A program made the position numbers and the translations under genes. Shown here piece after piece: positions 360 to 22,662 of a stretch of DNA of 26,596 bases (its first letter is position 1; each line of letters starts with the position of its first letter). Source of the DNA: a virus. The stretch is from IMG/VR virus record IMGVR_UViG_3300042294_003815, positions 1 to 26,596 of that record, one strand, 5' to 3'. The notes beneath the pieces were generated by a model. It worked only from the letters and a program-made list of their open reading frames with translations. It made no database searches and had not been told where the DNA came from.

Positions 360-2000
360 ATGGCAATTCTAAAAGAATCTACAATAGATACTTTAACTGC
401 TGGAAGAGGTAATAGCCAAGTAGCTTCTAATACAGCTTTTGGTATAAATACCCTCAAGTTAAATACTACTGGATACCAACAAACAGCAATTGGAATTGAA
501 GCTTTATCAACTGCTACCACTGGTCAGGAAAATACTGCTATTGGGGCCTATGCTGGTGATGCGATAGCTGGAGGAAATAATAATATAGCTATTGGATTTA
601 ATGCCCTAACAGCCGTTAATAGTGGATATAGAAATATAGCTATTGGACAAGCTGCTTTAGGAGCTCAAACTACTAGTAACCAACTTGTAGCTATCGGAGC
701 TCAGGCGGGTAGATGCGTAACAACAGGAGCAGGAAGTAGTATATTTTTAGGTTGGAGATCAGGATTTTCAAATACTGATGGAGGGCAATTCGTTGGCGTA
801 AAAGCTGGATACAGTACTACAACTAATGGCACTATAGCAGCAGTAGGATATTGTGCTATTAGCGTTAGTAATCCTACTCAAAACTGGCCTGTAGCAGTTG
901 GCACTTGTGCTCTACGTCAATTAACTGGTGGGTATATTGCTGCTGTAGGGTTTTGTGCTGGAGCCACTAATACATCAGGTATATCTAATGTCTTTATTGG
1001 AACTTTAGCTGGTAAAAGTGTAGTAACTAACCAAGACCAAATGCACGTTGGAGATTCAGCCGGATGCTCTTCAGCTACAAACCGCTCTAACTTTTTAGGA
1101 GCATCCGCAGGTATGAGCTCTACGGGATATGCCGCTAACGTTTTAGGTTATTGTGCTGCTGGAGCTGATACTAATAATTGTCAATCAGTAAATATTGGAT
1201 ATAGAGCAGGTTTTGGTCCTACATCTAGTTGTAGAACTTTATTTTTAGGAGCATGTAGCCAACCCAGTACTGGAAGATCTGTAAGTATTGGCTTTAAAGC
1301 TAGAGGCGGACAATGTAACGAGACTACTTCAGTTGGCCTCTGTACTGGTAATGCTTTAACAACTGGTAACTGTAATGTACTTATAGGACACTATGCGGGT
1401 TGCGCTATAACAACAGGTTATGGAATTAACATAATAGGATATAAAGCAGGTCTTGCTATGACCACCCAGAAAAATACTAATATTATTGGAGCTTGTGCTC
1501 AAGAATTATATAATCTGCGAGATATAATTGCTGTAGGAGCCGGTTCACAAACCTCCAATAATGCTAATCACACAGTTTGGGGAACTGCCTCCAATAACGT
1601 ATGTAACTGTATACAACTCCAATGGGCTACCCCCTCAGATTGTAGAGATAAAACAAATATAGAACCTTTAGATCCTAAATTAGGACTACAATTTTTAAGT
1701 AAAATTCGTCCTGTAAGTTTTAACTGGGATAATAGAGATTTATATGTAAAAAAATGTGGTTTTGAATACGGTAAAAAAGATGGTACATTAACCGGAGATA
1801 AAGAAAGGTATGGTATTATTGCTCAAGAAGTTTTACAAATTTTAGATAACCTAGATGTAAATTGGGATGGGGTACAGGGAACAAAAAAATCTTATAGAGT
1901 AAAGCACGATCATTTCTTTGCTTCTTTAGTAGCTGCTTTACAAGAATTATCTCAAGAAGTAGATACTATAGAACAACAAATCCTCCAATTAGAAAAATAA
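360..2000 (+). CDS. Repeat-rich tail fibre with self-cleaving S74 chaperone, paralogue 1
   Basis: A 546-residue protein. After about 15 N-terminal residues (MAILKESTIDTLTAGRG) it consists of roughly 24 short repeats with a core like NTAIG..AL..TTG, spaced about 17 residues near the N-terminus and drifting in spacing and sequence later. The S74 chaperone starts at S426 in SDCRDKTNI, with S426 and K431 as the predicted Ser-Lys cleavage dyad, and continues through F..V.FNWD and GIIAQEV to a C-terminal helix. Family knowledge predicts trimerisation, then release of residues 426-546. The mature fibre would be almost pure repeat. The protein has about 18 cysteines, many at the same place in the repeat (YCA, TCA, FCA, ACA). 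There is no clear N-terminal baseplate-attachment domain. There is no Shine-Dalgarno sequence, and the gene is probably co-transcribed with its neighbours. It could be a side fibre, tail fibre or head decoration; the repeat fold is not known to me. Confidence 0.85.
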   Translation: MAILKESTIDTLTAGRGNSQVASNTAFGINTLKLNTTGYQQTAIGIEALSTATTGQENTAIGAYAGDAIAGGNNNIAIGFNALTAVNSGYRNIAIGQAALGAQTTSNQLVAIGAQAGRCVTTGAGSSIFLGWRSGFSNTDGGQFVGVKAGYSTTTNGTIAAVGYCAISVSNPTQNWPVAVGTCALRQLTGGYIAAVGFCAGATNTSGISNVFIGTLAGKSVVTNQDQMHVGDSAGCSSATNRSNFLGASAGMSSTGYAANVLGYCAAGADTNNCQSVNIGYRAGFGPTSSCRTLFLGACSQPSTGRSVSIGFKARGGQCNETTSVGLCTGNALTTGNCNVLIGHYAGCAITTGYGINIIGYKAGLAMTTQKNTNIIGACAQELYNLRDIIAVGAGSQTSNNANHTVWGTASNNVCNCIQLQWATPSDCRDKTNIEPLDPKLGLQFLSKIRPVSFNWDNRDLYVKKCGFEYGKKDGTLTGDKERYGIIAQEVLQILDNLDVNWDGVQGTKKSYRVKHDHFFASLVAALQELSQEVDTIEQQILQLEK

Positions 2001-2001
2001 T

Positions 2002-3663
2002 ATGGCTAGTTTACAAGAATCATTTGTTAATTGTAACAGATTAGGAAAGGGCAATAATAGCTTATTATCAAACACTGTTTTTGGCAGATGCTCTTTAGCT
2101 AGTAATTCCACAGGTACTCTTAACACAGCAGTGGGATATTTAGCACTTTGTTCAAATACAACAGGTGTTGGCAATACCGCAGTAGGAGCTCAAGCCATGA
2201 GAAATAATACCATTGGTGTTAGAAACACTTCTATTGGTATATCTAATTCTAGATTAAATACATCTGGAGAAGATAATACCTCGGCTGGTGGTTTTGCACT
2301 TTATAGAAATACTTGTAGTAGAAACACAGCTATAGGCCATATATCACAACAAAACCGAACAACTGGTAATGGTAATACTTCAGTAGGCTTTAGATCTATG
2401 TATGGTGTAAACGGCACCACCACCGGGTGTGGGAATACTACCATTGGTCAATTCTCAATGGAAGATATCACATCTGGAAACTATAACACAGGTGTTGCTA
2501 GTCTTTCAAATGTAACTTCAGGTCTCCGCAATACAGGAATAGGTGCATTTAATCTTACGAACTTAACCTCAGGATGCGATAATACAAGCTTAGGAGCTTA
2601 TGGTAGTTGTGCTTTAACTACAGGCTGTTATAATACACATGCAGGCTGGGCTTCCTTTAATAAAGCAACTACAGCTAAATTTAATACAGGTGTAGGGCAA
2701 AGGTCTCAATGCTGTATAACCACGGCATGCTATAATACATCAATGGGTACAAGTGCTTTAGGCACTATAGCCACAACAAACCATAGTACTGCTTTCGGTA
2801 GAGGTGTTTTACAAAGTGCTACTTGTAGTAAAAACACAGCTGCAGGTGAATATGCAGGATGTTCGGTAACAACTGGAACTGATAATACACTTATGGGCTA
2901 TAAAGCTGGGATAAGTATTACAACAGGTATAGGTAATACAGTATTAGGGGATTTAAGTTTATCCAGTACTACAACAGCTGGTTGTAGCACAGCCATTGGT
3001 AATAGTGCTATAAGAGGTCCTTCTACAGGAGGTAAAAACGTTGGTTTAGGTGTCGCCGCGGGAGAAAACGCTGCCACAGGTACTACAGATCTTGTTGCTA
3101 TTGGCTTTAGATCAATGTTCTATACATCTAACGGTGCTGCAAAAACTACTAGTATCGGCTGTAGAAACAATATCTACCCTACTCGTTGTTGTGTTACCAC
3201 TATTGGAACCTATACCGGAGCTCCTGCAATTTGTGAAACAAGATGGCAGGGTAGCACATGCAATTGTGTTTATGATGATTGGTATGCAGTATCAGACCAA
3301 AGAGATAAAGCAAATATTAAAGACTTAAATCCTAAATTAGGTTTAGAATTTATTAAAAAGTTAAAGCCTGTAAGCTTTAATTGGGATCAAAGGGAAGAAT
3401 ACGTTAGAGAATGTGGCTTTGAATTTGGACAAAAAGATGGGACTTTAATGGTTAACCATAAAGAATATGGTTTTATAGCTCAAGACATTAAACAAGTCCT
3501 CAGCGAACTTGGTTTAAGATGGGATGCTCTTAAAGGAAAAGAAGAAACTAAGTACACTTTACAGCATAGTGCTTTAAATGCTAGTGTGACTAAAGCAATC
3601 CAACAACTTTTAGAAAAAGTTGAATATTTAGAAAGTAAAACATTAATCTTAGAATCTAAATAA
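2002..3663 (+). CDS. Repeat-rich tail fibre with self-cleaving S74 chaperone, paralogue 2
   Basis: A 553-residue paralogue of the preceding gene, starting 1 base after its stop. The N-terminus (MASLQESFVNCNRLGKGNNS) follows the same short plan. It is followed by about 23 repeats of the NT[A/S/G].G type, here with the NT core more regular (NTAVG, NTSIG, NTGVG). The S74 domain begins at S431 in SDQRDKANI, with K436 as dyad partner, and includes FNWD, GFIAQDI and a C-terminal helix. It is the most cysteine-rich of the three (about 21 Cys, including CC pairs at SQCCITT and TRCCVTT). Part of its chaperone coding sequence is identical at the DNA level to that of the next gene (3301-3359), which points to recent exchange or duplication. 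The protein probably forms a trimeric receptor-binding or structural fibre. No Shine-Dalgarno sequence is visible. Confidence 0.85.
   Translation: MASLQESFVNCNRLGKGNNSLLSNTVFGRCSLASNSTGTLNTAVGYLALCSNTTGVGNTAVGAQAMRNNTIGVRNTSIGISNSRLNTSGEDNTSAGGFALYRNTCSRNTAIGHISQQNRTTGNGNTSVGFRSMYGVNGTTTGCGNTTIGQFSMEDITSGNYNTGVASLSNVTSGLRNTGIGAFNLTNLTSGCDNTSLGAYGSCALTTGCYNTHAGWASFNKATTAKFNTGVGQRSQCCITTACYNTSMGTSALGTIATTNHSTAFGRGVLQSATCSKNTAAGEYAGCSVTTGTDNTLMGYKAGISITTGIGNTVLGDLSLSSTTTAGCSTAIGNSAIRGPSTGGKNVGLGVAAGENAATGTTDLVAIGFRSMFYTSNGAAKTTSIGCRNNIYPTRCCVTTIGTYTGAPAICETRWQGSTCNCVYDDWYAVSDQRDKANIKDLNPKLGLEFIKKLKPVSFNWDQREEYVRECGFEFGQKDGTLMVNHKEYGFIAQDIKQVLSELGLRWDALKGKEETKYTLQHSALNASVTKAIQQLLEKVEYLESKTLILESK
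3301..3359 (+). repeat. 59-base block identical to 5032-5090 (S74 chaperone start)
   Basis: Reading the two paralogues side by side, bases 3301-3359 and 5032-5090 are identical, including all third codon positions, and sequence diverges immediately on both sides. The block encodes RDKANIKDLNPKLGLEFIKK, directly after the S74 cleavage serine. The corresponding part of the first paralogue (from about 1644) is clearly diverged. Identity at silent positions suggests recent duplication or gene conversion, and such a block could serve as a recombination point for swapping receptor parts. Confidence 0.85.
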
Positions 3664-5385
3664 ATGGCAACTTTACTTAAAAGCTCAGTAAACGGGATAT
3701 GTGTTGGTCGAGGTTCTAACAACTGCACAGGAACTACCGCAATTGGGATTAATGCTCTACAAAATATTGCTAATGTTGTCAATAGAGGCTGTTTTAATAC
3801 AGCTGTAGGATATAATGCTCTAAGATGTAATGGTACTGCTGACTTTGGCTTAAGAAATACTGCTGTAGGACATATGGCATTATGTGCCAACACAGGCGGA
3901 GGTTGCAACACTGCAGTTGGATCTAGTGCTTTAAAAAGTAATTTAACTGGATTTTGTAATACTGCAGTAGGTTATAAAGCCTTGTATGCCAATACCGGAT
4001 GTTACAATACAGCTTTTGGTTCTTCAGCATTACAAAACAATACAACAGGTTTAAGAAATACAGCAATAGGACACCAAGCTATGAATGGGGGAGTTACACC
4101 TACAGGTAATAATAATACTGCAGTAGGAACCCTCGCTTTAAGAAATAATACATCAGGATATGAAAACACAGCAATAGGATTTAATGCATCCTATAGAAAT
4201 ACTACAGGAATTAGAAATACAGCTTTTGGAGCTAACGCTTTATGCAATAACTGTGTTGGTGTCAGTAATACAGCTTTTGGATACGCTGCTGCAAAAGAAG
4301 TGAGTAATTCTTCAGGACGAGTTACCGCGTTTGGCTCTAGAGCAGCCCAGCGTATTAATGGTAGAGCTAATACAGCAGTTGGATTTAAAGCACTTTATGG
4401 CGCTGCCTCTTCTACAGGATACCAAAATACTGCTTTTGGAGCTTGTTCTTTAGCTTCTATTTCTACAGGAAAAGCTAATGTAGGTTTTGGCTTTAAGGCA
4501 GGTAGTTCTCTAACTACAGGTAACTTTAATACTATGTTTGGTTCATTAGCGGGCTGTACCGTAACTACTGCTATAGGAAATGTTATGGTAGGCTATAAAG
4601 CAGGTATAAATCAAGTAACTTCTGACACAGGCACAATTGCTATTGGCTCACTTGCCGGTTATCTTAGCAGTTGTGCTGCTGGTAATCTAATTGAAATGAT
4701 GATAGGATTTTGTGCAGGTAAAGATAATACCTCATGTGGTAGAAATACCTTTATAGGAGCTCAATCAGGATTTGGCCTCTCAGGAGCCTCTAATACTGCT
4801 ATAGGGTATAGAGCAGGATATTCCCCTTCTTCTGCTACCTATTACAATACTTGCAACACTTTCGTGGGTTCATGCGCTTACCCTACTTTTAATGCCCAAG
4901 CTTTTAGTCACGTAATAGCAGTTGGACATAATTCTCGTCCTGATGGAATAACGGGTCATACAATGTGGGGTGCTTCTTTTAATACTGTTTTAAATGAAGT
5001 AGGAACAGCTTGGTCAAACGTTTCAGACTACAGAGATAAAGCAAATATTAAAGACTTAAATCCTAAATTAGGTTTAGAATTTATTAAAAAACTACGTCCT
5101 GTAGCTTTTAACTGGGATGTTAGAGATAATTACGTTGAAAAGTGTGGCTTTGAATTTGGTAAAAAAGACGGTACATTAGCTCAAGAACAAGAGGAATATG
5201 GGTATATATCACAAGAAATCCGCGATATATTAACAGATTTAAATGTAAAATGGGATGCTATTGGAGATAATGGTAAAGTAGTTAGACTACAATCATCTAA
5301 TTTACATGCTTCACATATAAAATCAATCCAAGAATTACACCAAAGAATAGTTTCTTTAAAAGAAAAAATAACAACCTTAACTTAA
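3664..5385 (+). CDS. Repeat-rich tail fibre with self-cleaving S74 chaperone, paralogue 3
   Basis: A 573-residue protein whose ATG directly abuts the previous stop codon. It carries the most regular repeat array of the set: about 24 units such as NTAVGYKALYANTG and NTAFGSSALQNNTTG, with a 17-residue period in the first half. The S74 chaperone starts at S454 in SDYRDKANI, with K459 as the predicted dyad lysine, followed by FNWD, GYISQEI and a C-terminal helix. About 18 cysteines occur, often just before the NT core or in the second half of the repeat. The near-identical chaperone start shared with paralogue 2, set against divergent repeats, suggests that the receptor part diversifies while the folding domain is conserved. 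A 39-base A/T-only gap follows, the first real gap in the fibre cluster, so this may be the last gene of the fibre transcript. Confidence 0.85.
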   Translation: MATLLKSSVNGICVGRGSNNCTGTTAIGINALQNIANVVNRGCFNTAVGYNALRCNGTADFGLRNTAVGHMALCANTGGGCNTAVGSSALKSNLTGFCNTAVGYKALYANTGCYNTAFGSSALQNNTTGLRNTAIGHQAMNGGVTPTGNNNTAVGTLALRNNTSGYENTAIGFNASYRNTTGIRNTAFGANALCNNCVGVSNTAFGYAAAKEVSNSSGRVTAFGSRAAQRINGRANTAVGFKALYGAASSTGYQNTAFGACSLASISTGKANVGFGFKAGSSLTTGNFNTMFGSLAGCTVTTAIGNVMVGYKAGINQVTSDTGTIAIGSLAGYLSSCAAGNLIEMMIGFCAGKDNTSCGRNTFIGAQSGFGLSGASNTAIGYRAGYSPSSATYYNTCNTFVGSCAYPTFNAQAFSHVIAVGHNSRPDGITGHTMWGASFNTVLNEVGTAWSNVSDYRDKANIKDLNPKLGLEFIKKLRPVAFNWDVRDNYVEKCGFEFGKKDGTLAQEQEEYGYISQEIRDILTDLNVKWDAIGDNGKVVRLQSSNLHASHIKSIQELHQRIVSLKEKITTLT

Positions 5386-5424: not shown

Positions 5425-5691
5425 ATGGAAAATGAACCCCCCCTACCACCACCAGATTATTTAGCTATTATAGCTAATTCAAATAGTGAAATTTCAGTTA
5501 TACATTCTATTATAGAGGGTAGTTTATGGATATATGCTACACAACAAGAAAAAACAGATGCAGTAGCTCGTCAAAAAGACTATTTAGATATTATGATGGG
5601 CAATTACTGGTTTAGAGATAATATTACCCTCGAGTACTCAGCAAGTATTGCTGAGGCTGTAAATTCAGCAAGCATTTATATTAATAATTAA
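5425..5691 (+). CDS. Small protein of unknown function (88 aa) between fibres and glycan island
   Basis: I do not recognise this 88-residue protein. It starts with a proline-rich stretch (ENEPPLPPPDY), followed by mostly helical, acidic sequence without membrane segments (IIEGSLWIYATQQEKTDAVARQKDYLDIMMGNYWF). It has no cysteine. The A/T-only leader 5386-5424 contains TTATATTATA, which also occurs after the terminator near 15731, so a promoter here is possible but unproven. A seven-C run lies at codons 5-7 (5437-5443), striking in such A/T-rich DNA. Its position right after the fibre genes and 6 bases before the sulfotransferase would suit a fibre-associated chaperone or adaptor, but nothing in the sequence proves this. 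Confidence 0.7.
   Translation: MENEPPLPPPDYLAIIANSNSEISVIHSIIEGSLWIYATQQEKTDAVARQKDYLDIMMGNYWFRDNITLEYSASIAEAVNSASIYINN
5637..5655. repeat. Perfect 8-bp inverted repeat inside the 88-aa gene
   Basis: CTCAGCAA (5637-5644), loop GTA, TTGCTGAG (5648-5655). The stem is perfect and would form in the mRNA about 36 bases before the stop codon. No T-run follows, so it is not a standard terminator. It may be chance. Confidence 0.5.
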
Positions 5692-5697
5692 TAATTT

Positions 5698-6519
5698 ATG
5701 GTAAAAAAGGTTTTTTATAATAGTTCTTTACCTAGAGCAGGTTCAACACTTATTCAAAATATACTAGCTCAAAACCCCGAAATTTATAGCTCTCCTACTT
5801 CAGGAGTATTTTCATATGTTGATGCTTTAAGAACTATTTACAGCACTGATCCGGCTATTCGAGCACAAGATGAACAAGTAATGGAAAACGCTTTTAGGGG
5901 AACTATTAAAGGCGCTATTTATGGGTTTTATAATTCTATTACAGATAAACCCTATATACTCGATAAAGCAAGAGCTTGGAATTCAGAATTAAATTTTATA
6001 AATTTTTATGATTCTGAACCTAAAGTTATTTGCATGGTTCGAGATTTAAGAGCAGTATTTGCTTCTATGGAGAAAAAATACAGAGCAAATCCTGAAAAAA
6101 ATCTAGGAATAGCTGATTGGAATGGGCTAGTAGGTACTAACTTAGATAAACGAATTATATACTGGTCTAATAACCCTCCTATTGGCCAAACTCTAGATCG
6201 TTTATATGATTCAATTTTAACTAAACAACACGAAAAAGTGTTATTTATTAAGTTTGAAGATCTTTGTACAAATCCTAAAAAAGAATTAAAACGAATTTAC
6301 TCTTATTTAGGGTTAAAGGAATTTCAACACGATTTTGACAATGTTGAACAACTAACAGTTGAAGATGATCGAGTACATGGTGTGTTTGGGGATCACGTTA
6401 TTAGAAAAAAAGTTGAATTACCTAAAGAAGATTTTGAAGAAATTTTAGGTGAAAAAGGTTGTAAGTTAGTTACAGATGGTTATCCATGGTTTTATGAATT
6501 ATTTGAATACAAAATATGA
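5698..6519 (+). CDS. Sulfotransferase (PAPS-dependent)
   Basis: A 273-residue cytoplasmic sulfotransferase of the P-loop-like family that moves a sulfate group from PAPS to a sugar or other hydroxyl. The 5'-phosphosulfate-binding loop is SSLPRAGSTLIQN (residues 9-21), and the 3'-phosphate-binding pair is R115 in MVRDLRAVFAS with S123, at the canonical spacing. Later features (FIKFEDLCTNPKKELKRIYSYLGL) are also typical of the family. There is no signal peptide or membrane segment, so the acceptor should be intracellular, such as a lipid-linked glycan, a nucleotide sugar or a virion protein glycan. It opens a six-gene island of sugar-related enzymes and overlaps the next gene by 4 bases (ATGA), implying translational coupling. 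It depends on host-made PAPS, since no PAPS synthesis gene is visible. The acceptor is unknown. Confidence 0.88.
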   Translation: MVKKVFYNSSLPRAGSTLIQNILAQNPEIYSSPTSGVFSYVDALRTIYSTDPAIRAQDEQVMENAFRGTIKGAIYGFYNSITDKPYILDKARAWNSELNFINFYDSEPKVICMVRDLRAVFASMEKKYRANPEKNLGIADWNGLVGTNLDKRIIYWSNNPPIGQTLDRLYDSILTKQHEKVLFIKFEDLCTNPKKELKRIYSYLGLKEFQHDFDNVEQLTVEDDRVHGVFGDHVIRKKVELPKEDFEEILGEKGCKLVTDGYPWFYELFEYKI

Positions 6520-7439
6520 AAGTAGGTTTTCAAGAAGAAGTTAAAGAAGAAGTTAAAGAAAAGTATATAGTTTGGCATATTGAAGGAGGATTAGGTAAAA
6601 ATATAGCAGCTACCTCTCTTTTATCAACTATTAAAAAAACATACCCTGATAGAAAATTTATCATGGTAGCATCCTATCCTGAAATATTTTTGAACTTCCC
6701 AGAAGTTGACAGAGTGTACCCCGCAGGTAATTCTCCTTATTTCTACCAAGACTATATTGAAGATAAAGACACAATAGTTTTTAGACATGAAGGATATTTT
6801 CAATCAGGTCATATCAATAAACAGCAGCACCTAATTCAAAGCTGGTGTGAAATTTTTGGATTAGAATACACAAACCAGCAACCTGTACTTCTACCTAATA
6901 TGATTCAAAAACAATTCATGTTTAATTGGAATCGGGAAAAACCTGTAATGTTATTACATACTAACGGGGGTGCACTACAAGATACAAATTCATATTCTTG
7001 GACTAGAGATATGCCACCTGCGGTAGCTATGCAATTAATTGATAAATACTCTCAAGATTATCATATTATACAAATTTGTAAAAACTTAAACCAAGTATAT
7101 TCTGGAGTAGAAGCTATTACTCAACCTTTAACTAATTTTGAATTAGTTTCAATTTTAGCAGTATCTCAAAAACGTATTTTAATTGATTCAAGTTTACAAC
7201 ATGCCGCAGCTGCAATGAAGCTCCCTTCAACAGTTTTGTGGGTAGGAACATCACCTAAAGTATTTGGTTATGAATTACATTCAAATATTAAGGCAAATCC
7301 ACCCAAACATAAACCAAAACTTTTAACATCATATTTATTTGATTATGATTTTACAGGGGATGCTATTCAATGCCCCTATGATGATGTATTCGAAATGTTT
7401 GATCTTAAAAAAGTAACTGACACTGTAGATAGAACGTAA
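6516..7439 (+). CDS. Glycosyltransferase, GT9 (heptosyltransferase)-like
   Basis: A 307-residue protein with GT-B features of the ADP-heptose:LPS heptosyltransferase family (GT9). The N-terminal glycine loop is VWHIEGGLGKNIAATSLL (about residues 19-36). The C-terminal donor-side segment, LIDSSLQHAAAAMKLPSTVLWVG around D224 and H229, corresponds to the DS..H.AAAL..P...L.G motif. The start overlaps the sulfotransferase stop by 4 bases. The first 15 residues are a short charged repeat (EEVKEEVKEK, from a 12-base tandem duplication near 6535), perhaps a dispensable extension. The donor sugar cannot be told from sequence. A 71-base gap with an inverted repeat follows, so this may end a sub-operon. 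Confidence 0.7.
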   Translation: MKVGFQEEVKEEVKEKYIVWHIEGGLGKNIAATSLLSTIKKTYPDRKFIMVASYPEIFLNFPEVDRVYPAGNSPYFYQDYIEDKDTIVFRHEGYFQSGHINKQQHLIQSWCEIFGLEYTNQQPVLLPNMIQKQFMFNWNREKPVMLLHTNGGALQDTNSYSWTRDMPPAVAMQLIDKYSQDYHIIQICKNLNQVYSGVEAITQPLTNFELVSILAVSQKRILIDSSLQHAAAAMKLPSTVLWVGTSPKVFGYELHSNIKANPPKHKPKLLTSYLFDYDFTGDAIQCPYDDVFEMFDLKKVTDTVDRT

Positions 7440-7447
7440 AAATTACT

Positions 7448-7489
7448 TGCTGGTTTAATTTACTGTTCGTATATTTAATTAAACAAGCA
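7448..7489. terminator. Imperfect inverted repeat between GT9-like and oxygenase genes; possible terminator or mRNA structure
   Basis: TGCTGGTTTAATT (7448-7460) can pair with AATTAAACAAGCA (7477-7489) over 12 of 13 positions, with a 16-base loop that can itself form TAC/GTA. It sits in the only sizeable gap (7440-7510) of the glycan island. No clean T-run follows (TTGATTATAAAA), and the stem is A/T-rich, so terminator strength is doubtful. It may instead be a processing site or a regulatory hairpin in front of the oxygenase gene. Confidence 0.4.
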
Positions 7490-7510
7490 TTGATTATAAA
7501 ATTTAAATAA

Positions 7511-8488
7511 ATGGCACACGAAAGTAATTCCCCTTATGTAAAATGGCATATAGATGAATTTAAACAAATTCAAAACACAACTTATAAAGTAACTGGATGG
7601 ATTTTTCACCAAAATCGCGAAATTAAAAATATTTTAATTGGAGATTCTATTCTTACATATCAACGCATTTCCCGTCCTGATGTATGTCAAACTTATCCAT
7701 ATATTATTAATAATAATGTAGGATTTGAGCTTTTAATAGAAGAAAAAGATTTATATAAAACCCTTTCAGTAGTTTTTGAAGATAATACTGGAATAGTAAA
7801 TATAGGAAATTTTAAAAATTTTATAACTAAATTTACTAATTTTCGTTCTATAACTAATAATGAATCTCTTACAGAAGACTATATTCTTAATTCTGGATTT
7901 AATAATCTTCATAAAGGAATCATGGTTGTAGATAATTTTTATAAAGATCCGGATGCTATAAGAGAATATGCTATCACAAATCTTACATTTAACTCTTCAG
8001 GGTATCACAAAGGAGAACGTAGTCAAGAACGTTTTATTTTAAATGGTACTAAAGAACGTTTTGAACAAATTATTGGACGTAAAGTCACTAATTGGGAACA
8101 TCCTGAATATGCAAATGGTCGTTTCCAATTTTGTGTAGAAGATGACCCTATAGTATACCATGTAGATAATCAAACTTTTGCAGCTGTTGTATTTTTATCC
8201 CCTGATGCTCCTTTAGAAGCGGGAACGGCTACGTATAGAAGTAAAATTACAGGAGCTACTCGTTTTGAAGAATTTGACACTCCCGAATTTATTACTACTT
8301 TTAAAGGATATGGTAGTGAAATTAATTTTTACGATGGTTCAAGTTTTGAAGTTGTTGATCAAGTAGGTAATGTATACAATAGATTAGTAATTTGGGATGC
8401 CAAAACTATTCATGCCGCTACTAAATATTATGGTAATAATATTAATAATAGTAGATTTTTTCAATTGTTTTTCTTTGATGTTGAATAA
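7511..8488 (+). CDS. Fe(II)/2-oxoglutarate-type oxygenase with N-terminal beta-sandwich-like domain
   Basis: A 325-residue protein. The C-terminal two-thirds (from about residue 128, GIMVVDNFYKDPDAIREYA) has the 2OG-oxygenase metal triad: H217 and D219 in YHVDNQTFAAVVFLSP, H301 in IWDAKTIHAATKYYG, and R315 as a candidate 2OG-binding arginine. The fold resembles phage and bacterial proteins of the DUF6445 type (family name from memory, unverified). The first about 100 residues (YKVTGWIFHQN, ISRPDVCQTYP, NNNVGFEL) look like the small beta-sandwich module with a GW...RPDV..YP..NN.GF pattern that accompanies glycosyltransferases and related enzymes. It probably hydroxylates a sugar, lipid or protein side chain. 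The next gene is a second oxygenase 12 bases downstream. No Shine-Dalgarno sequence; the leader is A/T-only. Confidence 0.7.
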   Translation: MAHESNSPYVKWHIDEFKQIQNTTYKVTGWIFHQNREIKNILIGDSILTYQRISRPDVCQTYPYIINNNVGFELLIEEKDLYKTLSVVFEDNTGIVNIGNFKNFITKFTNFRSITNNESLTEDYILNSGFNNLHKGIMVVDNFYKDPDAIREYAITNLTFNSSGYHKGERSQERFILNGTKERFEQIIGRKVTNWEHPEYANGRFQFCVEDDPIVYHVDNQTFAAVVFLSPDAPLEAGTATYRSKITGATRFEEFDTPEFITTFKGYGSEINFYDGSSFEVVDQVGNVYNRLVIWDAKTIHAATKYYGNNINNSRFFQLFFFDVE

Positions 8489-8500
8489 AATACCTTAATT

Positions 8501-9148
8501 ATGTATTTACCTACCCCCTATAAAATTGATTACGATACTAAAAAATATCCTTTTAGAGAAATTGTATCTAATATGCTTGAAATTAATAATAATCGTTTAG
8601 AAGATCTTCATCTTTTAGAAAATTATGGTTTATTATCTCGCGAACAAGATCAAAAAACTAAATGGCATAAAAAGTATTATGATAAATTTCAAACTGAATT
8701 TCTCTCTACTTATTTAAAATTAGTAAAAGAAATTAAAGAAAGATTTGAATACAAAGAAATCATATACCAACAAATTCCTACTTTTAGAGTTCAATTAGGG
8801 GACGGTAATGTTGCTGTAGGAGAATGGCATAAAGATAAAACTTATGAACATAATGCTACTGAAGTAAATTTCTGGATGCCTTTTGTAAATACTAATGTAT
8901 TCAATTCAATATGGACGGAAAGTTCCGAGGATAAAGGCGATTATAAGCCATATCTTGTAAATTATGGCGAGATATTGGTATTTAGTGGAGCTAATCTTTA
9001 TCACGGGAATAAAAACAATGAAAGTAACGATACTCGTGTTTCTGTAGATTTTAGATTAGTAGATCCTAATAAATTTACTCCTAATTCTAAAGGTTCTATT
9101 AATATGAATACTGCATTTGATATTGGTGGGTATTTTGAAAAATTATAA
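8501..9148 (+). CDS. Fe(II)/2-oxoglutarate-dependent oxygenase (phytanoyl dioxygenase/StrG-like)
   Basis: A 215-residue single-domain protein. H110-K-D112 in GEWHKDKTY and H168 in LYHGN form the facial triad for iron, and R179 (DTRVSVDFR) is placed to bind 2-oxoglutarate, with R185 as an alternative. The context FRVQLGDGN.AVGEWHKD and N.WMPF....SIW.E resembles StrG-like and phytanoyl-CoA-dioxygenase-type enzymes from antibiotic and sugar pathways. It is soluble, without signal or membrane segments. It sits between another oxygenase and a glycosyltransferase, which suggests that it hydroxylates an intermediate that is then glycosylated, or a sugar within the glycan. It is only weakly similar to its neighbour, so the two probably act on different positions. 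Confidence 0.75.
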   Translation: MYLPTPYKIDYDTKKYPFREIVSNMLEINNNRLEDLHLLENYGLLSREQDQKTKWHKKYYDKFQTEFLSTYLKLVKEIKERFEYKEIIYQQIPTFRVQLGDGNVAVGEWHKDKTYEHNATEVNFWMPFVNTNVFNSIWTESSEDKGDYKPYLVNYGEILVFSGANLYHGNKNNESNDTRVSVDFRLVDPNKFTPNSKGSINMNTAFDIGGYFEKL

Positions 9149-9156
9149 ATAAAATA

Positions 9157-10866
9157 ATGGTTTATATAATTACCCCCTGCCTCCGCCCTTTTAATTTAGA
9201 GAAAATAAAACAAACAATTCCTTCTGAATGTCAGTGGGTTATCGTATATGATTCATCATTAAAACATGAGTACCATATTGAAGGTGCTATTAATTTAAAA
9301 TCTCCATTTACGGGAGATGTAGGGTATCCTAATCGTAATCATGCTTTAGATACCTTAAATATGTCTGATAATGATTGGTTTTATATCCTAGATGATGATA
9401 ATCTTATCCACCCAGATTGGTATGAAACTGTAAAACCTTATTTAGAATCTGAGGTTAATATGATTAATTGGGGGCAATGTTTTTATAATGGCATTTCTCG
9501 TTCCAATGCTTCAGATAACTTAACCCAAGATAGAGTAGATTCCGCTCAGTATATGATGAGGTGGGGTGCTGTTAAACCCCTTAGATATTCCTCTCATTAT
9601 GAATCAGATGGTGATTATGCTAATAATGCTGCTAAATTATGTTTAGGAAATATTTTGAAAATAAACCAAAATATTTGTTATTATAATGCTTTAAGAAGAC
9701 ATAAAGATCCGGACCCAGCACGTACTCATATTGTAATGATTTCGATGTTTAAGAACGAAGCTCATAACATTAGACAAATGTTAGAGTCTTGTTACAAATA
9801 TATTGATTTTTGGGTTTTACAAGATAATGGTTCTACAGATGGTACACCCGAAATAGTAAATGATTTCTTTAAAGACAAAGATATCCCTGGATTTATTTAT
9901 AAAGTTGAAGAAGGATGGGTTGGATTTGGGTGGAACCGTGACCACTTACTCCAAAAATGTTTAAATACCGATCATGGGTGTGATTGGATTTTAAAAATGG
10001 ATTGTGATGAAACTCTTGAAGTAGATACCACAAATACAATTGATCCTAATGGTTTTGATTGGAGTATATTTTGGAGTACAGATATTCAATCGTTCAATGT
10101 CGTAGCTGCAGGGGGTGGGATAATATATTATAGAACCTGGATTTGGAATGCTAAACTACCATGGAGATTTAACCATGATACAGCACACGAAACTATTTAT
10201 TTAGACGTTGATTATCTTGAAGATAAACAAGTATTTGAACGTGTACCTTTACCTAAAGGATTTAGGCAAGTAGGACATAATACTGGCCAAAGTTGGAGTG
10301 TACCTACTAAATTTTTAACTGATGCACTTGTATTTGAGGAACGTTTAATTCGTGAAAATACATTACTTGAAAATAGATATCATTTCTTTTATATAGGAAA
10401 AAGTTATGAAGATACTTATGAAGGAGACTTTTTCCCATTAGGTAGAGCCCATTCAGAAGAATTTGCCCGTAGATGTATCTTTTATTTTGAAGAATTTGTT
10501 CACCAAACTCACGACTTTAAAAACACTAAAGAAGCTAAATGTATGGATGAAATGAGTTATCATGCTGTATGTGGGATAGCTAGAGCTTATAAATTTTTAG
10601 GTAATATTAATAAAGCTATTTTTTATTACCAAAAAGCTAATAATTTTTGCCCTCGACGTAACGAACACTGGGTTGGGTTAGCTGAAAGTTATAACTTAAT
10701 AGAAGAATATAATAAAATGTTAGAAATAACTAATATATTAATGTCCCCCGAAAGAACTTGCCCATTCCCCGATTTAGTATTTTTAATTAATACTAATTTA
10801 TACCATGATACTGGTAAATATCCTGAATATTTACATAACATTGCCTTACAAAATTCTAATAATTAA
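9157..10866 (+). CDS. Two-headed glycosyltransferase with C-terminal TPR-like repeats
   Basis: A 569-residue protein with two GT-A-type modules. Module 1 (residues 1 to about 185) starts YIITPCLRP and holds a metal/nucleotide-sugar motif LDDDN at D79-D81, followed by LIHPDWYE. Module 2 starts near residue 191 (HIVMISMFKNEAHNI), has the GT2 hallmark DNGSTDGT and a DXD motif at D282-C-D284 (KMDCDETL), and an acceptor-side H.TGQSW region. Residues about 468-530 (YHAVCGIARAYKFLGN.NKAIFYYQKA.NFCPRRNEHW) read as TPR-like helical repeats, as in processive or protein-modifying glycosyltransferases. Two catalytic modules suggest successive or alternating addition of two sugars. It is soluble, and the gene is 3 bases from the next one. 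Donor and acceptor are unknown. Confidence 0.8.
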   Translation: MVYIITPCLRPFNLEKIKQTIPSECQWVIVYDSSLKHEYHIEGAINLKSPFTGDVGYPNRNHALDTLNMSDNDWFYILDDDNLIHPDWYETVKPYLESEVNMINWGQCFYNGISRSNASDNLTQDRVDSAQYMMRWGAVKPLRYSSHYESDGDYANNAAKLCLGNILKINQNICYYNALRRHKDPDPARTHIVMISMFKNEAHNIRQMLESCYKYIDFWVLQDNGSTDGTPEIVNDFFKDKDIPGFIYKVEEGWVGFGWNRDHLLQKCLNTDHGCDWILKMDCDETLEVDTTNTIDPNGFDWSIFWSTDIQSFNVVAAGGGIIYYRTWIWNAKLPWRFNHDTAHETIYLDVDYLEDKQVFERVPLPKGFRQVGHNTGQSWSVPTKFLTDALVFEERLIRENTLLENRYHFFYIGKSYEDTYEGDFFPLGRAHSEEFARRCIFYFEEFVHQTHDFKNTKEAKCMDEMSYHAVCGIARAYKFLGNINKAIFYYQKANNFCPRRNEHWVGLAESYNLIEEYNKMLEITNILMSPERTCPFPDLVFLINTNLYHDTGKYPEYLHNIALQNSNN

Positions 10867-10869
10867 TTT

Positions 10870-12687
10870 ATGAAAAATATCCCTACAGAAGATCCAAAAC
10901 ACCATTGGTCATTTTTAAATGTAAAAGATAAGCTTGTATTAGATATGGGGTGTTCTTTTTATGAAGCCTACTATAACCCAGGCATGCTAAGTTCGGCTGA
11001 ATGGTTTATCGAAAATGGTGCTACCCAAGTAATTGGATTTGATGGTGATCCTGAAGAAGTAACTAAATATAATATAGTTTACAAAAACGACCCACGTTAT
11101 GAGGTATTTGAACTTTGGTTAGACACCCCAGGCCACATTAAAAAACTTCTTGAATTTAATCCTCAAGTTATAAAATGCGATATTGAAGGAGCTGAAATTA
11201 ATTTCTTACCTATTACTAAAGAAGAAATGGATTGTGTTGAAGAAATTGCTTTTGAATATCATGATATAGCTACCCGTGAAATGTGTGAGAAAAAACTCCC
11301 AGAATGGGGTTTTGATTATATTGAACAATTTTCTATTTTAGATAGACACCCCGATAACCAAGGAGTATATTATGGTCGTAAATCACAAGGTAAAAAAACA
11401 AAAGTAGTTAAATTATCTATTAAAAAAGAAGAAACACTTAAGGAAATTGTTCCAATTTTAAAATCTAAAAAAGCAAAAGTTCCTAAAGTTCTTTATATAG
11501 GACCGGGTAATCCCCATCTTGAATCTATACATAATAAAAATTTTGAAGACACTTCATTAGATGTTAAATATCTTTCTAATGATGATAATATTAATGAAAT
11601 TATATCTTCATTCCGTCCCGATTCTATTGTAACTATTGGTGAAAGTGATTCTCAATTCCCCAATTTACATAATAATCTATATGATGTAAGGAAACGTTGG
11701 TTTAATGGAACAGAAGTTAATGATATAACTGGGCATAATGCTTATTATTGTGCTATGCACCAAATGCTAACTAATGATAATTCTAAAATGATTTCATATT
11801 TTACCCCTTCATATAATACTGGGGTAAAAATCTATGATACTTATATGTCCCTAAAAGCTCAAACTTATCTTGATTGGGAATGGGTTATTGTAGATGATTC
11901 AAATGATAATGGTAAAACTTTACAAATTATTAAAAATATAGCATCAGTTGATCCTCGAGTTAGAGTTTATAGTTTTGAAGAAAAAAGTGGTGGAATAATA
12001 GGTGAAGCTAAATATAGAGCAGCTAGTTTATGCCGTGGTTATTTATTAGCAGAATTAGATCATGATGATTTATTAACAGATAATTGCACTATGGATTTAT
12101 ATGATGCAAGCCAAGCATTCCCAGATGCTGGATTCTTCTATAATGACTCGGTAGAAGTAAATCAATTTTTTCAATCTCTTACTTATGGAGGAGAATTTGC
12201 TTTAGGGTATGGTAAATACGAAAAAGTCCAATATAAAAATTATCTATGGGATGTAGCTATTACTTGCAACATTAATCCTAAAACAATCCGTCATATTGTA
12301 GGTATCCCTAATCATGTTCGTGCATGGAGAAGAGAAACATATTTTGCTATTGGGGGACACAATCGTGAACTATCCATAGCAGATGATTACGAATTAGTAG
12401 TAAGAACATTCCTCCATACTAAAATGGTTAAAATCCCTAAACTTGGATATATCCAGTTTATTCATGCTAAAGGTAACGAACAAAACTCTCACGATATAGC
12501 ACGAGCCGATATTCAACGACGTGTAAGAACTATTATGGAACACTACAATGAAGCTATTGCTAAACGATTTGAAGAATTAGGAGTAGAAGATTGGGTATAT
12601 AATCAAAAAGATACATACCCTTGGGAAGTTCCTTGCCGCTGGGGTAATGAAGAAGGTTACGTTAACGAGATTTTTTTAAACAAATAA
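10870..12687 (+). CDS. Fusion of FkbM-type methyltransferase and GT2 glycosyltransferase
   Basis: A 605-residue fusion. Residues about 20-175 are an FkbM-like SAM-dependent methyltransferase: the glycine-rich loop LVLDMGC (D25), the acidic SAM ribose region GFDGDP (D58), and the FkbM signature IKCDIEGAE (D104, E106). A lysine-rich linker (about 175-205) leads to a middle domain (VLYIGPGNPHLES...SIVTIGESDSQFPNL) that looks Rossmann-like but which I cannot name. From residue 305 (SKMISYFTPSYNTG) a GT2 glycosyltransferase follows, with the donor motif VIVDDSND and the DXD-type LDHDD at D397-D400. O-methylation is often a cap on phage or bacterial glycans, so this protein could extend and cap the same chain. 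It is the last gene of the island; a coiled-coil gene starts 18 bases later. Confidence 0.8.
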   Translation: MKNIPTEDPKHHWSFLNVKDKLVLDMGCSFYEAYYNPGMLSSAEWFIENGATQVIGFDGDPEEVTKYNIVYKNDPRYEVFELWLDTPGHIKKLLEFNPQVIKCDIEGAEINFLPITKEEMDCVEEIAFEYHDIATREMCEKKLPEWGFDYIEQFSILDRHPDNQGVYYGRKSQGKKTKVVKLSIKKEETLKEIVPILKSKKAKVPKVLYIGPGNPHLESIHNKNFEDTSLDVKYLSNDDNINEIISSFRPDSIVTIGESDSQFPNLHNNLYDVRKRWFNGTEVNDITGHNAYYCAMHQMLTNDNSKMISYFTPSYNTGVKIYDTYMSLKAQTYLDWEWVIVDDSNDNGKTLQIIKNIASVDPRVRVYSFEEKSGGIIGEAKYRAASLCRGYLLAELDHDDLLTDNCTMDLYDASQAFPDAGFFYNDSVEVNQFFQSLTYGGEFALGYGKYEKVQYKNYLWDVAITCNINPKTIRHIVGIPNHVRAWRRETYFAIGGHNRELSIADDYELVVRTFLHTKMVKIPKLGYIQFIHAKGNEQNSHDIARADIQRRVRTIMEHYNEAIAKRFEELGVEDWVYNQKDTYPWEVPCRWGNEEGYVNEIFLNK

Positions 12688-12705: not shown

Positions 12706-12954
12706 ATGGAAACAAAAGTTTTAACACAAAAAGAACTTACACAACTAAGAGATCTTCAAAATCAACAAAATGATATTTTAGCTGGACTAGGTTCACTTGA
12801 ATATAGAATTACTTTATTAGAGAGTAATAAAGCTATTTTAAAATCACAAATAGTTGAACTAGAAAAAACTAGTGCTGATTTAGGAGCTCAATTAACCGAA
12901 AAATACGGAAGTGGTAACCTTAATTTAGAAACAGGTGAAATAACCATAGAATAA
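12706..12954 (+). CDS. Small coiled-coil protein (82 aa), unknown function
   Basis: An 82-residue acidic protein. Residues about 8-65 are a near-continuous amphipathic helix with heptad leucine/isoleucine spacing (LTQLRDLQNQQNDILAGLGSLEYRITLLESNKAILKSQI in part), ending in a short YGSGNLNLETGEITIE tail. Small proteins of this form occur near the tail genes of marine T4-like phages as far as I recall, without assigned function. Placed 93 bases before the sheath gene, it could be a chaperone, a structural rod or a regulator. No Shine-Dalgarno sequence. A weak hairpin overlaps the stop codon. Confidence 0.75.
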   Translation: METKVLTQKELTQLRDLQNQQNDILAGLGSLEYRITLLESNKAILKSQIVELEKTSADLGAQLTEKYGSGNLNLETGEITIE

Positions 12955-13047: not shown

Positions 13048-15144
13048 ATGGCAGAAACTTTAATTTCACCTGGGGTATTAGCTAGAGAGAATGACAATTC
13101 ATTCGTTACACAGCAACCCGTAACTGTTGGAGCCTCAATCATTGGCCCAACCGTAAAAGGCCCTGTAGAAATTCCTACAGTAGTTACTACTTACTCAGAT
13201 TATTTAAATAAATTTGGTGGTACTTTTTTAAGTGGTGGTCAAGAATATAGCTACTTAACTTCAATTGCGGCCTATAACTATTTTCAACAAGGAGGTCAAA
13301 GCTTAATAGTAGCTAGAGTAGTTTCAGGATCATTTGCTTCCGCTACTTCATTTGATGCTAATGCTTCTGGAACATTAGGTATAGCTAGTGGTTTAGGATT
13401 CACAACCGCTTCGGCTACATTAGGTATTACCCCATTTTCAGCTAGTTATGCTCTTGTAGGATCTAGTTCTTATAATATAAACGGTATTAATTTTAATTTT
13501 ACTGGTAGTGCTCAAGCTAATACAAGTACTCAAATTAATATTAATGCTTCTTCTTTTACTACCCCCACTACTTTTGCATCCGGAGCTGTATTAGCTCTTA
13601 ATGATAGTTCCTCAGTAGCGCTATACACCTCTTCTTTATCAGATATTTCAGCTTCAAATAGTGTAGCAACCCTTAACTTATTTGCAGAAACTGCAGGTGT
13701 AGGTGGTAATAGTTATTATTATACTTCGGGAAGTACAACTACTTTCTTTACAGGTGGAACTAATACTGTATCATTTACTCTTAAAACTATCTCAGAAGGT
13801 ACCATCATGAACAACTCAGGTTCACTAGGTACTAATGGTATTTTAAGCAGCGGTTCAGCCGATAACGTAAGATGGCAAATTTCTAACGTAAATACTGGTT
13901 CAGGTACATTTAGTTTATTAGTTAGACAAGGTGACGATACAACTACAGAACCCATTGTTTTAGAAACTTGGACAAACCTATCACTTGACCCTACTCAAAC
14001 AAACTTTATTTCTAGAGTAATTGGTGATAGTGTTAAAGTATATGATGCCGCAGAAAACTATGTTGAAATAAACGGAAATTTCCCTAATCAATCTAGATAT
14101 GTTTACGTAAGTGCAGTTAATTCCCCAACTCCTTATTACTTTGATAATAACGGAACTGCTAAAAGTGCATTCACCTCTTCTATACCAATTGTATCACAAG
14201 GTACTTTTACTGGTGCTACTGGTGATTTATTCTATGGTGGTGGAGCTAAATTCTACAACTATATTTCGGGATCAACAAACCTACAAGGTATTGATGCTAC
14301 TGACTACGATGATATGATTGATCTAATGACTAACCAGGATGATTATCAATTTAACGTAATCACAATCCCGGGCTTAAACATTGCCGATAACGCAACTCAA
14401 AATACTGATTTAGTAAATGTTGTTCAATCTAGAGGTGATGCTATTGCGGTATTAGATACTAGACCTTACGGTGCCCAAATTTCTCAAGCTACAACCTCTG
14501 CTCAAACAATTAATAGTTCATACGCTGCAACATATTGGCCTTGGCTCCAAACAATTGATCCAGGAACTGGTCAACTTGTGTGGGTACCTGCCTCTACGAT
14601 GATTCCGGCAGTATATGCGTTTAACGACAGTGTTTCTGAACCATGGTTCGCTCCGGCGGGTATTAACAGAGGCGGTTTAGATACCGTAGTAAGAGCAGAA
14701 AGAAAACTTTCACAAACAAATCGTAATGACTTGTATATAGGTAATGTAAACCCAATTGCTACATTCCCCGGAACTGGAGTTGTAGTATATGGACAAAAAA
14801 CATTACAGAAAAAGTCATCTGCACTCGATCGTGTAAATGTACGTAGATTGTTAATTGCTCTTAAGTCTTACATTTCTCAAGTAGCTAATAACTTAGTGTT
14901 TGAACAAAACACAATCGCTACAAGAAATCAATTCTTAAGCCAAGTTAACCCATATCTTGAATCAGTTCAACAACGTCAAGGTTTATACGCATTTAGAGTA
15001 ATTATGGATGATTCTAATAACACTCCGGATGTAATTGATAGAAACCAGATGATTGGTCAGATTTATCTACAACCAACTAAGACTGCTGAATTTATTTACC
15101 TAGATTTCAACATCTTACCAACAGGAGCTACTTTCCCAGCATAA
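13048..15144 (+). CDS. gp18: Contractile tail sheath protein
   Basis: A 698-residue T4 gp18-type sheath protein, which polymerises around the tail tube and contracts on infection. The N-terminus SPGVLARENDNSF followed by GASIIGPTVKGPVEIPTVVTTY.DY..KFGG is characteristic. The variable middle (about residues 110-430) is rich in Ser/Thr/Gly and probably forms the protruding domain. The C-terminal half holds the conserved sheath core: YQFNVITIPGLN, GDAIAVLDTRPYG, YWPWLQTIDP, PWFAPAGINRGGL, VYGQKTLQKK.SALDRVNVRRLLI and FIYLDFNI. Length is close to T4 gp18 (659). It contains no cysteine that I can see, unlike the fibre proteins. The candidate late promoter lies just upstream; the tube gene follows after 46 bases with its own copy of the element. 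Confidence 0.95.
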   Translation: MAETLISPGVLARENDNSFVTQQPVTVGASIIGPTVKGPVEIPTVVTTYSDYLNKFGGTFLSGGQEYSYLTSIAAYNYFQQGGQSLIVARVVSGSFASATSFDANASGTLGIASGLGFTTASATLGITPFSASYALVGSSSYNINGINFNFTGSAQANTSTQININASSFTTPTTFASGAVLALNDSSSVALYTSSLSDISASNSVATLNLFAETAGVGGNSYYYTSGSTTTFFTGGTNTVSFTLKTISEGTIMNNSGSLGTNGILSSGSADNVRWQISNVNTGSGTFSLLVRQGDDTTTEPIVLETWTNLSLDPTQTNFISRVIGDSVKVYDAAENYVEINGNFPNQSRYVYVSAVNSPTPYYFDNNGTAKSAFTSSIPIVSQGTFTGATGDLFYGGGAKFYNYISGSTNLQGIDATDYDDMIDLMTNQDDYQFNVITIPGLNIADNATQNTDLVNVVQSRGDAIAVLDTRPYGAQISQATTSAQTINSSYAATYWPWLQTIDPGTGQLVWVPASTMIPAVYAFNDSVSEPWFAPAGINRGGLDTVVRAERKLSQTNRNDLYIGNVNPIATFPGTGVVVYGQKTLQKKSSALDRVNVRRLLIALKSYISQVANNLVFEQNTIATRNQFLSQVNPYLESVQQRQGLYAFRVIMDDSNNTPDVIDRNQMIGQIYLQPTKTAEFIYLDFNILPTGATFPA

Positions 15145-22359: not shown

Positions 22360-22662
22360 ATGAATAGATATCGAAATATTCCTATAATTAGAAGTACTAC
22401 TAGTAAACAAATGTATGCTACTTCTCGCTATCCCGAAATACCTTTATCCTCGGATGATATCTATGTTTATACTACTCAAGGAGATAGATATGATATATTA
22501 GCTCTTCAATATTATAGTAATTCTTCTTTATGGTGGATTATAGCTATAGCAAACCCTAATACAGGACTTAATTCATTAGTTATTCCAGAAGGTATCCAAA
22601 TTAGAATCCCTAGCGATTATACTAGCGTTATTACCCAATTTAATTTAATAAATCAGTTATGA
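22360..22662 (+). CDS. gp53: Baseplate wedge protein gp53-like (LysM-like)
   Basis: A 100-residue protein resembling the C-terminal LysM-like part of T4 gp53, the wedge protein that closes the baseplate ring. The region SDDIYVYTTQGDRYDILALQYYSNSSLWWIIAIANPNTG, followed by LVIPEGIQIRIPSDY, matches the LysM-type pattern (Y.V..GDR.D.LA..YYG...LWW.IA.AN......L..G..LRIP). T4 gp53 is 196 residues, so this is a short form, as is common in simpler myoviruses. The start is an ATG without Shine-Dalgarno sequence. Its TGA stop overlaps the hub gene start by 4 bases (ATGA), suggesting coupled translation of two baseplate parts. Confidence 0.78.
   Translation: MNRYRNIPIIRSTTSKQMYATSRYPEIPLSSDDIYVYTTQGDRYDILALQYYSNSSLWWIIAIANPNTGLNSLVIPEGIQIRIPSDYTSVITQFNLINQL

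Follow-up and report, generated by a model that had tools for sequence, protein, structure and literature searches.

Gene organisation of the locus

We analysed a 26.6-kb linear virus record (IMG/VR IMGVR_UViG_3300042294_003815, 26,596 nucleotides, hereafter the window), a fragment of an uncultured aquatic myovirus related to Flavobacterium phage immuto, to whose tail sheath its own sheath is about 54% identical. Six enzyme genes lie between its fibre genes and its sheath gene. Two of them, encoding a sulfotransferase (ST) and a glycosyltransferase of the GT9 fold (GT9), were found as a conserved pair in related phages and co-occur with repeat fibres, and we consider it reasonably probable that they decorate β-roll fibres.

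The window opens with the end of a fibre gene (1-357) and continues with three long fibre genes (360-5385), an open reading frame (ORF) of 88 aa, the six enzyme ORFs (5698-12687), an ORF of 82 aa, the sheath and tube genes, and further tail and baseplate genes. A first-pass annotation of this DNA had described the six genes as contiguous and co-directional between fibre and sheath genes. We confirmed all six as intact, on the + strand and tightly packed (5698-6519, 6516-7439, 7511-8488, 8501-9148, 9157-10866, 10870-12687). The 88-aa ORF (5425-5691), which had been overlooked, has relatives that accompany ST elsewhere. Hydropathy analysis found no membrane segment in the window enzymes. The features are:

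360..2000, + strand: fibre 1, repeat protein rich in Asn, Thr, Ser and Gly, proposed acceptor (tail spike family PHROG 4636, E 1.5e-52; composition)
2002..3663, + strand: fibre 2, NTAIG-type β-roll repeats, proposed acceptor (PHROG 4636, E 8e-54; 9 regular NxA[IV]G spacings)
3664..5385, + strand: fibre 3, NTAIG-type repeats and a C-terminal S74 chaperone domain, proposed acceptor (Peptidase_S74, E 1.2e-8; 11 regular spacings)
5425..5691, + strand: small 88-aa protein (relatives directly beside ST in other loci)
5698..6519, + strand: ST of the type dependent on 3'-phosphoadenosine 5'-phosphosulfate (PAPS), module core (Sulfotransfer_3, E 9e-14; invariant PRxGxT motif)
6516..7439, + strand: GT9-fold glycosyltransferase, module core (AlphaFold2 model; Foldseek matches to WaaF, TibC, WaaC)
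7511..8488, + strand: DUF6445 member of the 2-oxoglutarate (2OG)-Fe(II) oxygenases, carrying an additional β-rich domain at its N-terminus, exchangeable cargo (DUF6445, E 1e-9; HxD-H-R; fold)
8501..9148, + strand: 2OG-Fe(II) oxygenase resembling TIGR04324, exchangeable cargo (TIGR04324 match; H110xD112, H168, R179)
9157..10866, + strand: glycosyltransferase with a GT2 domain (about 198-290), a weak second glycosyltransferase head at the N-terminus and a TPR-like C-terminus, cargo (profile matches)
10870..12687, + strand: possible FkbM-like methyltransferase (1-175) joined to a GT2 glycosyltransferase (about 304-560), cargo (profile matches, hhalign)
12706..12954, + strand: small protein of 82 aa, in relatives usually encoded ahead of the sheath; the variable slot ends here on its downstream side (position in relatives)
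13048..15144, + strand: tail sheath, fixed downstream boundary (Phage_sheath_1, E 4e-16)

ST and GT9 are the conserved core of a variable slot

The initial sulfotransferase call proved solid. ST scored 52.7 bits against Sulfotransfer_3, well above the curated Pfam cut-off of 27, and its PAPS loop and RDxR-type 3' motif were conserved, with P12, R13, G15, T17, R115 and S123 invariant in 16 phage and bacterial relatives. The nearest solved structures to the ST profile were the protein-tyrosine sulfotransferases TPST1 and TPST2 (E 1e-10). ST differs from them at the TPST1 EE position, where its alignment shows P/T (PTSG versus GEET). Because this Glu after the PAPS loop, which we take to be the catalytic base of the TPSTs, is not conserved at the aligned position, the sequence would not justify calling ST a TPST.

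The GT9-like protein had also been named in the first-pass annotation. By sequence this call is weak, as the protein falls below the Pfam Glyco_transf_9 cut-off (12.6 bits versus 22), and a PDB profile search with the GT9 alignment gave no match. It is backed by the predicted fold: the AlphaFold2 model (predicted local distance difference test, pLDDT, 89) has a GT-B fold of the GT9 type, and the best PDB matches in Foldseek were WaaF (E 1e-10), 3tov (a Veillonella GT9), TibC and WaaC, with a TM score of about 0.6.

GT9 accompanied ST in 53 of 61 non-redundant phage ST loci. In the window the start of GT9 overlaps the stop of ST by 4 nt; a 4-nt overlap was found in 23 locus pairs, and in relatives the two frames often overlap by this length or nearly so. 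No cultured phage record contained ST with GT9; the single-cell record AG-345-L05 alone did so.

Among sheath relatives, the gap between the fibres and the 82-aa gene with the sheath is highly variable. Other cargo found in this slot included 2OG-FeII_Oxy_3 proteins, an amine-oxidase-like flavoprotein, a carbamoyltransferase, UDP-galactopyranose mutase, methyltransferases and further sulfotransferases. The conserved core thus consists of ST and GT9 only, while the other four genes of the window are exchangeable cargo, swapped between relatives. The six genes had originally been read as a single hydroxylation, glycosylation, methylation and sulfation pathway; we rejected this because close relatives exchange the genes that fill the slot and only ST-GT9 is conserved as a unit. 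In locus L286 there is almost nothing else between fibre and sheath, the order being fibre-ST-sm88-APSK-CTPt-DUF2061-GT9-sm82-sheath. The small proteins upstream of ST were also considered as one conserved acceptor, and this idea was discarded since two unrelated-looking families fill that place.

Repeat fibres often lie upstream of the ST-GT9 pair

Of 33 non-redundant ST+GT9 loci with enough upstream sequence, 23 had an ORF with regular NxA[IV]G repeats no more than 6 kb upstream. Among the sheath controls this was true of 1 of 23, and among loci lacking ST or GT9 of 1 of 116. An earlier count based on hidden Markov models (HMMs) gave 23/29 versus 1/24. A strict NTAIG regular expression missed the NIAIG and NVAIG forms and under-counted fibres; it was replaced for the 23/33 count. 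The first-pass annotation had proposed looking for co-occurrence with NTA[I/V]G-repeat fibres in other phages, and for ST and GT9 such co-occurrence was found.

Some loci without such repeats are preceded by fibres of another type, as in L073 and L203 (tail-fibre and collagen-like families). In AG-345-L05, a Kyanoviridae record (L204:2-16570), long repeat or virion-like ORFs alternate with genes for ST, GT9, a 2OG oxygenase and a carbamoyltransferase. Matches among these long ORFs were to a virion structural family (one ORF) and to a family of unknown function (two ORFs).

Sulfate activation genes accompany ST in relatives

In the 61 phage loci, the genes near ST included a kinase of adenosine 5'-phosphosulfate (APS) in 36, a small nucleotidyltransferase in 34 and DUF2061 in 32, with all three present in 31. 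In 33 sheath loci that lack ST, the region leading up to the sheath contained no APS kinase. The small APS kinase of L203 matched PF01583 (E 4e-15), and the nucleotidyltransferase beside ST-GT9 in relatives is a PF01467 protein of about 120-130 aa. Directly after ST in another locus (L191:10824-11720), an APS kinase is fused to a small CTP_transf_like nucleotidyltransferase (E 3e-20 and 5e-8), an arrangement that looks like a compact PAPS synthase. In a Bacteroidetes metagenome-assembled genome (MAG), a single ORF two genes from ST matches both the DUF2061 and the APS kinase models (L207:10095-10991, - strand), which would link DUF2061 to sulfate activation.

Gene order and the kinase-nucleotidyltransferase fusion resemble a PAPS synthesis unit, in which the nucleotidyltransferase would make APS. 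Because APS kinase accompanies ST in these loci, usually together with the nucleotidyltransferase and DUF2061, many relatives appear to bring their own PAPS supply, and the APS kinase genes neighbouring ST strengthen the earlier suggestion of sulfation. None of the three genes was found in the window; PAPS would therefore have to be supplied by the host, or by genes not contained in the fragment. PHROG names had suggested an ADP-heptose supply for the genes downstream of GT9 in relatives, an idea that was dropped when Pfam identified APS kinase. In phage records, APS kinase gave three partial, weaker matches only.

A counterpart in Bacteroidetes

Scanning GTDB genomes with the GT9 alignment yielded 17 loci, mostly in Bacteroidetes MAGs. 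The typical Bacteroidetes set (L205-L219) consists of a β-roll repeat protein followed by an NHL-repeat protein with a type IX secretion system (T9SS) sorting domain, GT9 (sometimes fused to FkbM), FkbM and ST. The β-roll protein has SxILGGxxN repeats and matched LbR_Ice_bind in L211 (E 4e-7). These loci are on MAG contigs, and by eye their neighbouring genes look chromosomal, though this is not proof.

A whole-genome search of 11 genomes found 14 β-roll contig loci, 12 of which had GT9 within about 6 kb. In the reverse direction, a β-roll match was present at 12 of 15 GT9 loci, and three more GT9 loci (L205, L298, L301) lie, as judged by eye, beside β-roll remnants or a short β-roll ORF. The search from β-roll to GT9 is the less biased of the two because the 11 genomes had been chosen by GT9. 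These loci point to the repeat protein as the acceptor. We found no description of such β-roll, NHL/T9SS, GT9-FkbM and ST sets in the literature searched.

The exchangeable cargo genes

Two 2OG-type oxygenases had been predicted in the window, and this was supported for both by invariant HxD-H-R residues. The first (7511-8488) matched DUF6445 and has H217xD219, H301 and R315 invariant. Its predicted fold was of moderate confidence (pLDDT 71) and had the 2OG oxygenases HygX, PHD2, OGFOD1 and BesD as top matches; a PDB profile search with the DUF6445 alignment gave chance-level matches only. PHROG 1644 carries the label minor coat protein, probably in error: the members seen here look like 2OG-Fe(II) oxygenases.

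The second oxygenase (8501-9148) matched TIGR04324, the sporadic carbohydrate cluster oxygenase family (E 2e-13), with 50.5 bits, below the curated cut-off of 150. H110xD112, H168 and R179 were invariant, and a PDB profile search with the TIGR04324-like alignment gave no match. For this gene the proposed fibre link failed, as its relatives regularly occur in other clusters: 28 loci of other make-up were found, with no NxA[IV]G-type repeat fibre detected nearby. The close relatives L086, L087 and L090 carry an extra gene of ~240-260 aa between this oxygenase and the GT2 protein, which the window lacks.

The remaining two proteins had been described as a two-headed glycosyltransferase and an FkbM-GT2 fusion. 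In the first (9157-10866) the GT2 domain is solid (E 6e-15), while the N-terminal head gave a weak match (PHROG 2456, E 0.001). In the second (10870-12687) the C-terminal half scored 56 bits against Pfam Glycos_transf_2 (cut-off 23.3, E 5e-15) and matched chondroitin synthase in the PDB (E 1e-10). The FkbM half (10870-11394) is suggestive only, with a weak TIGR01444 match (E 0.06) and an hhalign probability of 11% against a set of genuine FkbM proteins, the alignment falling on the KCDIEGAE motif. Methyl capping is accordingly weak for the window, although genuine FkbM genes adjoin ST-GT9 in relatives.

Further downstream, the large baseplate-region protein at 22659-25850 has a C-terminal stretch matching an endolysin family (PHROG 2649), and the immuto protein at the corresponding place is annotated as a carboxypeptidase.

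Proposed function and alternatives

The simplest reading is that β-roll repeat proteins are the substrates of GT9 and ST, joined by FkbM in relatives; in the window these proteins would be the three adjoining fibres. Coupling to fibres, as first suggested for the whole island, is supported for ST and GT9 by the phage co-occurrence and the Bacteroidetes β-roll loci. We infer substrates, reaction order, acceptor residues and virion effect as follows. The module would sit inserted in the variable slot between fibre and sheath genes. In the infected cell, the soluble GT9-fold enzyme would glycosylate side chains of the fibre proteins with β-roll (NTAIG) repeats encoded just upstream, and ST, with PAPS as donor, would sulfate the attached sugar or possibly the protein. 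Related phages would in many cases probably make this PAPS with their own APS kinase and small nucleotidyltransferase; for the window it would be drawn from the host or from genes beyond the fragment. As interchangeable cargo, both GT2 proteins, both oxygenases and the putative FkbM half would extend, hydroxylate or methylate the decoration. The outcome would be virions with anionic, sugar-coated fibres.

Several points weigh against fibre decoration. No modified fibre has been observed, and the whole case is built on genomes; the sequence support for GT9 is weak, and about a third of the ST+GT9 loci have no recognised repeat fibre nearby. The phage loci are mutually related and were found with related queries, and most of the HMMs behind the counts had the window or its close relatives as seeds. 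In bacteria, β-roll/NHL pairs without GT9 exist. A sample of 200 genomes from a single family contained 8 with GT9, 8 with the β-roll and 6 with both (Fisher p 9e-9), but leaving out the genomes already found by GT9 gave p 0.06, with one new genome.

The enzymes might instead modify a host surface glycan (O-antigen, capsule or lipid-linked saccharide) to block superinfection, with fibre adjacency merely reflecting a host-recognition region. Glycosyltransferases in the host-recognition cluster of pelagimyophages have been so interpreted (PMC7029224), fibre-free clusters contain the TIGR04324-like oxygenase and some GT2 relatives, and the same slot in a relative holds a carbamoyltransferase and UDP-galactopyranose mutase. 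Surface-glycan modification is possible, especially by the exchangeable cargo. As an explanation of the locus we find it unlikely: the window has no membrane glycosyltransferase or flippase, the Bacteroidetes ST/GT9/FkbM set adjoins a β-roll protein, and the Kyanoviridae record alternates enzyme genes with long repeat or virion-like ORFs.

Direct sulfation of tyrosine or another fibre residue by ST, with GT9 acting separately, would suit the TPSTs as best solved relatives of the ST profile and the tyrosines present in the fibre and β-roll repeats. The missing TPST Glu, the scarcity of acidic residues in the repeats and the pairing of GT9 with ST almost everywhere make it improbable. It is more doubtful still that unlinked auxiliary genes were simply gathered in a hyperplastic region next to fibres. 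The fibre-to-sheath gap does vary strongly among sheath relatives, like the described hypervariable regions of T4-like phages, but the ST-GT9 pairing and the repeat-fibre link persist across divergent phages, and the link to repeat proteins recurs in bacterial contigs without a sheath.

Beyond fibre decoration in the window, the loci could represent a widespread mobile fibre-sulfation system common to aquatic phages and Bacteroidetes surface proteins. It would combine a self-supplied PAPS source (APS kinase, a minimal ATP-sulfurylase-like nucleotidyltransferase and DUF2061) with a GT9-type protein glycosyltransferase, FkbM and ST, and would place sulfated, methylated sugars on β-roll fibres. 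We advance this wider proposal tentatively, as one somewhat less likely than not to hold. Phage APS kinases beside sulfotransferases give a concrete reason other than sulfur assimilation for phages to carry sulfur-activation genes, and the Bacteroidetes β-roll link makes the acceptor question directly testable with few co-expressed genes. If fibre decoration is true, the charge and glycan coat of the fibres become a trait that phages encode and can exchange, and one that could control both their adsorption and their survival in water.

Comparison with known systems

Virion glycosylation in mycobacteriophages, where phage-encoded glycosyltransferases are thought to modify virion proteins, is similar in kind and concerns other proteins; to our knowledge, no sulfation or PAPS supply is part of it. 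Two putative glycosyltransferases mentioned in PMC11256854 suggest capsid glycosylation. Glycosyltransferases in phage host-recognition regions are already known. The pelagimyophage host-recognition cluster, in which they are read as modifying O-antigen (PMC7029224), and the cyanomyophage hypervariable region (Millard 2009, as cited there), both from T4-like phages, resemble our slot in being hypervariable and in holding tail fibres together with glycosyltransferases. They differ from our locus, where ST and GT9 form a fixed core directly next to fibre genes and sheath; the pelagimyophage cluster lies between VrlC and gp14, whereas the slot in the window ends at the sheath. A text search of PMC7029224 found no mention of a sulfotransferase.

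In the literature searched, which left most subscription journals outside, we found neither a fixed ST-GT9 core tied to β-roll fibres, with phage PAPS supply and a bacterial counterpart, nor a description of sulfated virion fibres. Searches for a phage sulfotransferase with APS kinase returned no relevant paper, and those for DUF2061 with sulfate returned unrelated papers only.

The autotransporter heptosyltransferases TibC and AAH (BAHT family, PMC4358343) share with the phage enzyme a GT-B fold of the GT9/heptosyltransferase type and a gene linked to a repetitive β-solenoid surface protein; TibC, a GT9-type enzyme that glycosylates a β-helix adhesin at patterned positions, is a precedent for the activity proposed here. 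Further traits of the family are a dodecameric assembly and ADP-heptose as donor. The four-cysteine iron finger described for this family (PMC4358343) is absent from the alignment of the GT9-fold protein, which has only scattered single Cys columns at 111, 188 and 286, and because it lacks the finger the protein is not a BAHT member. The acceptor of BAHT enzymes is an autotransporter, while the one proposed here is a phage fibre or β-roll protein, and the phage GT9 is partnered with a sulfotransferase and often with APS kinase.

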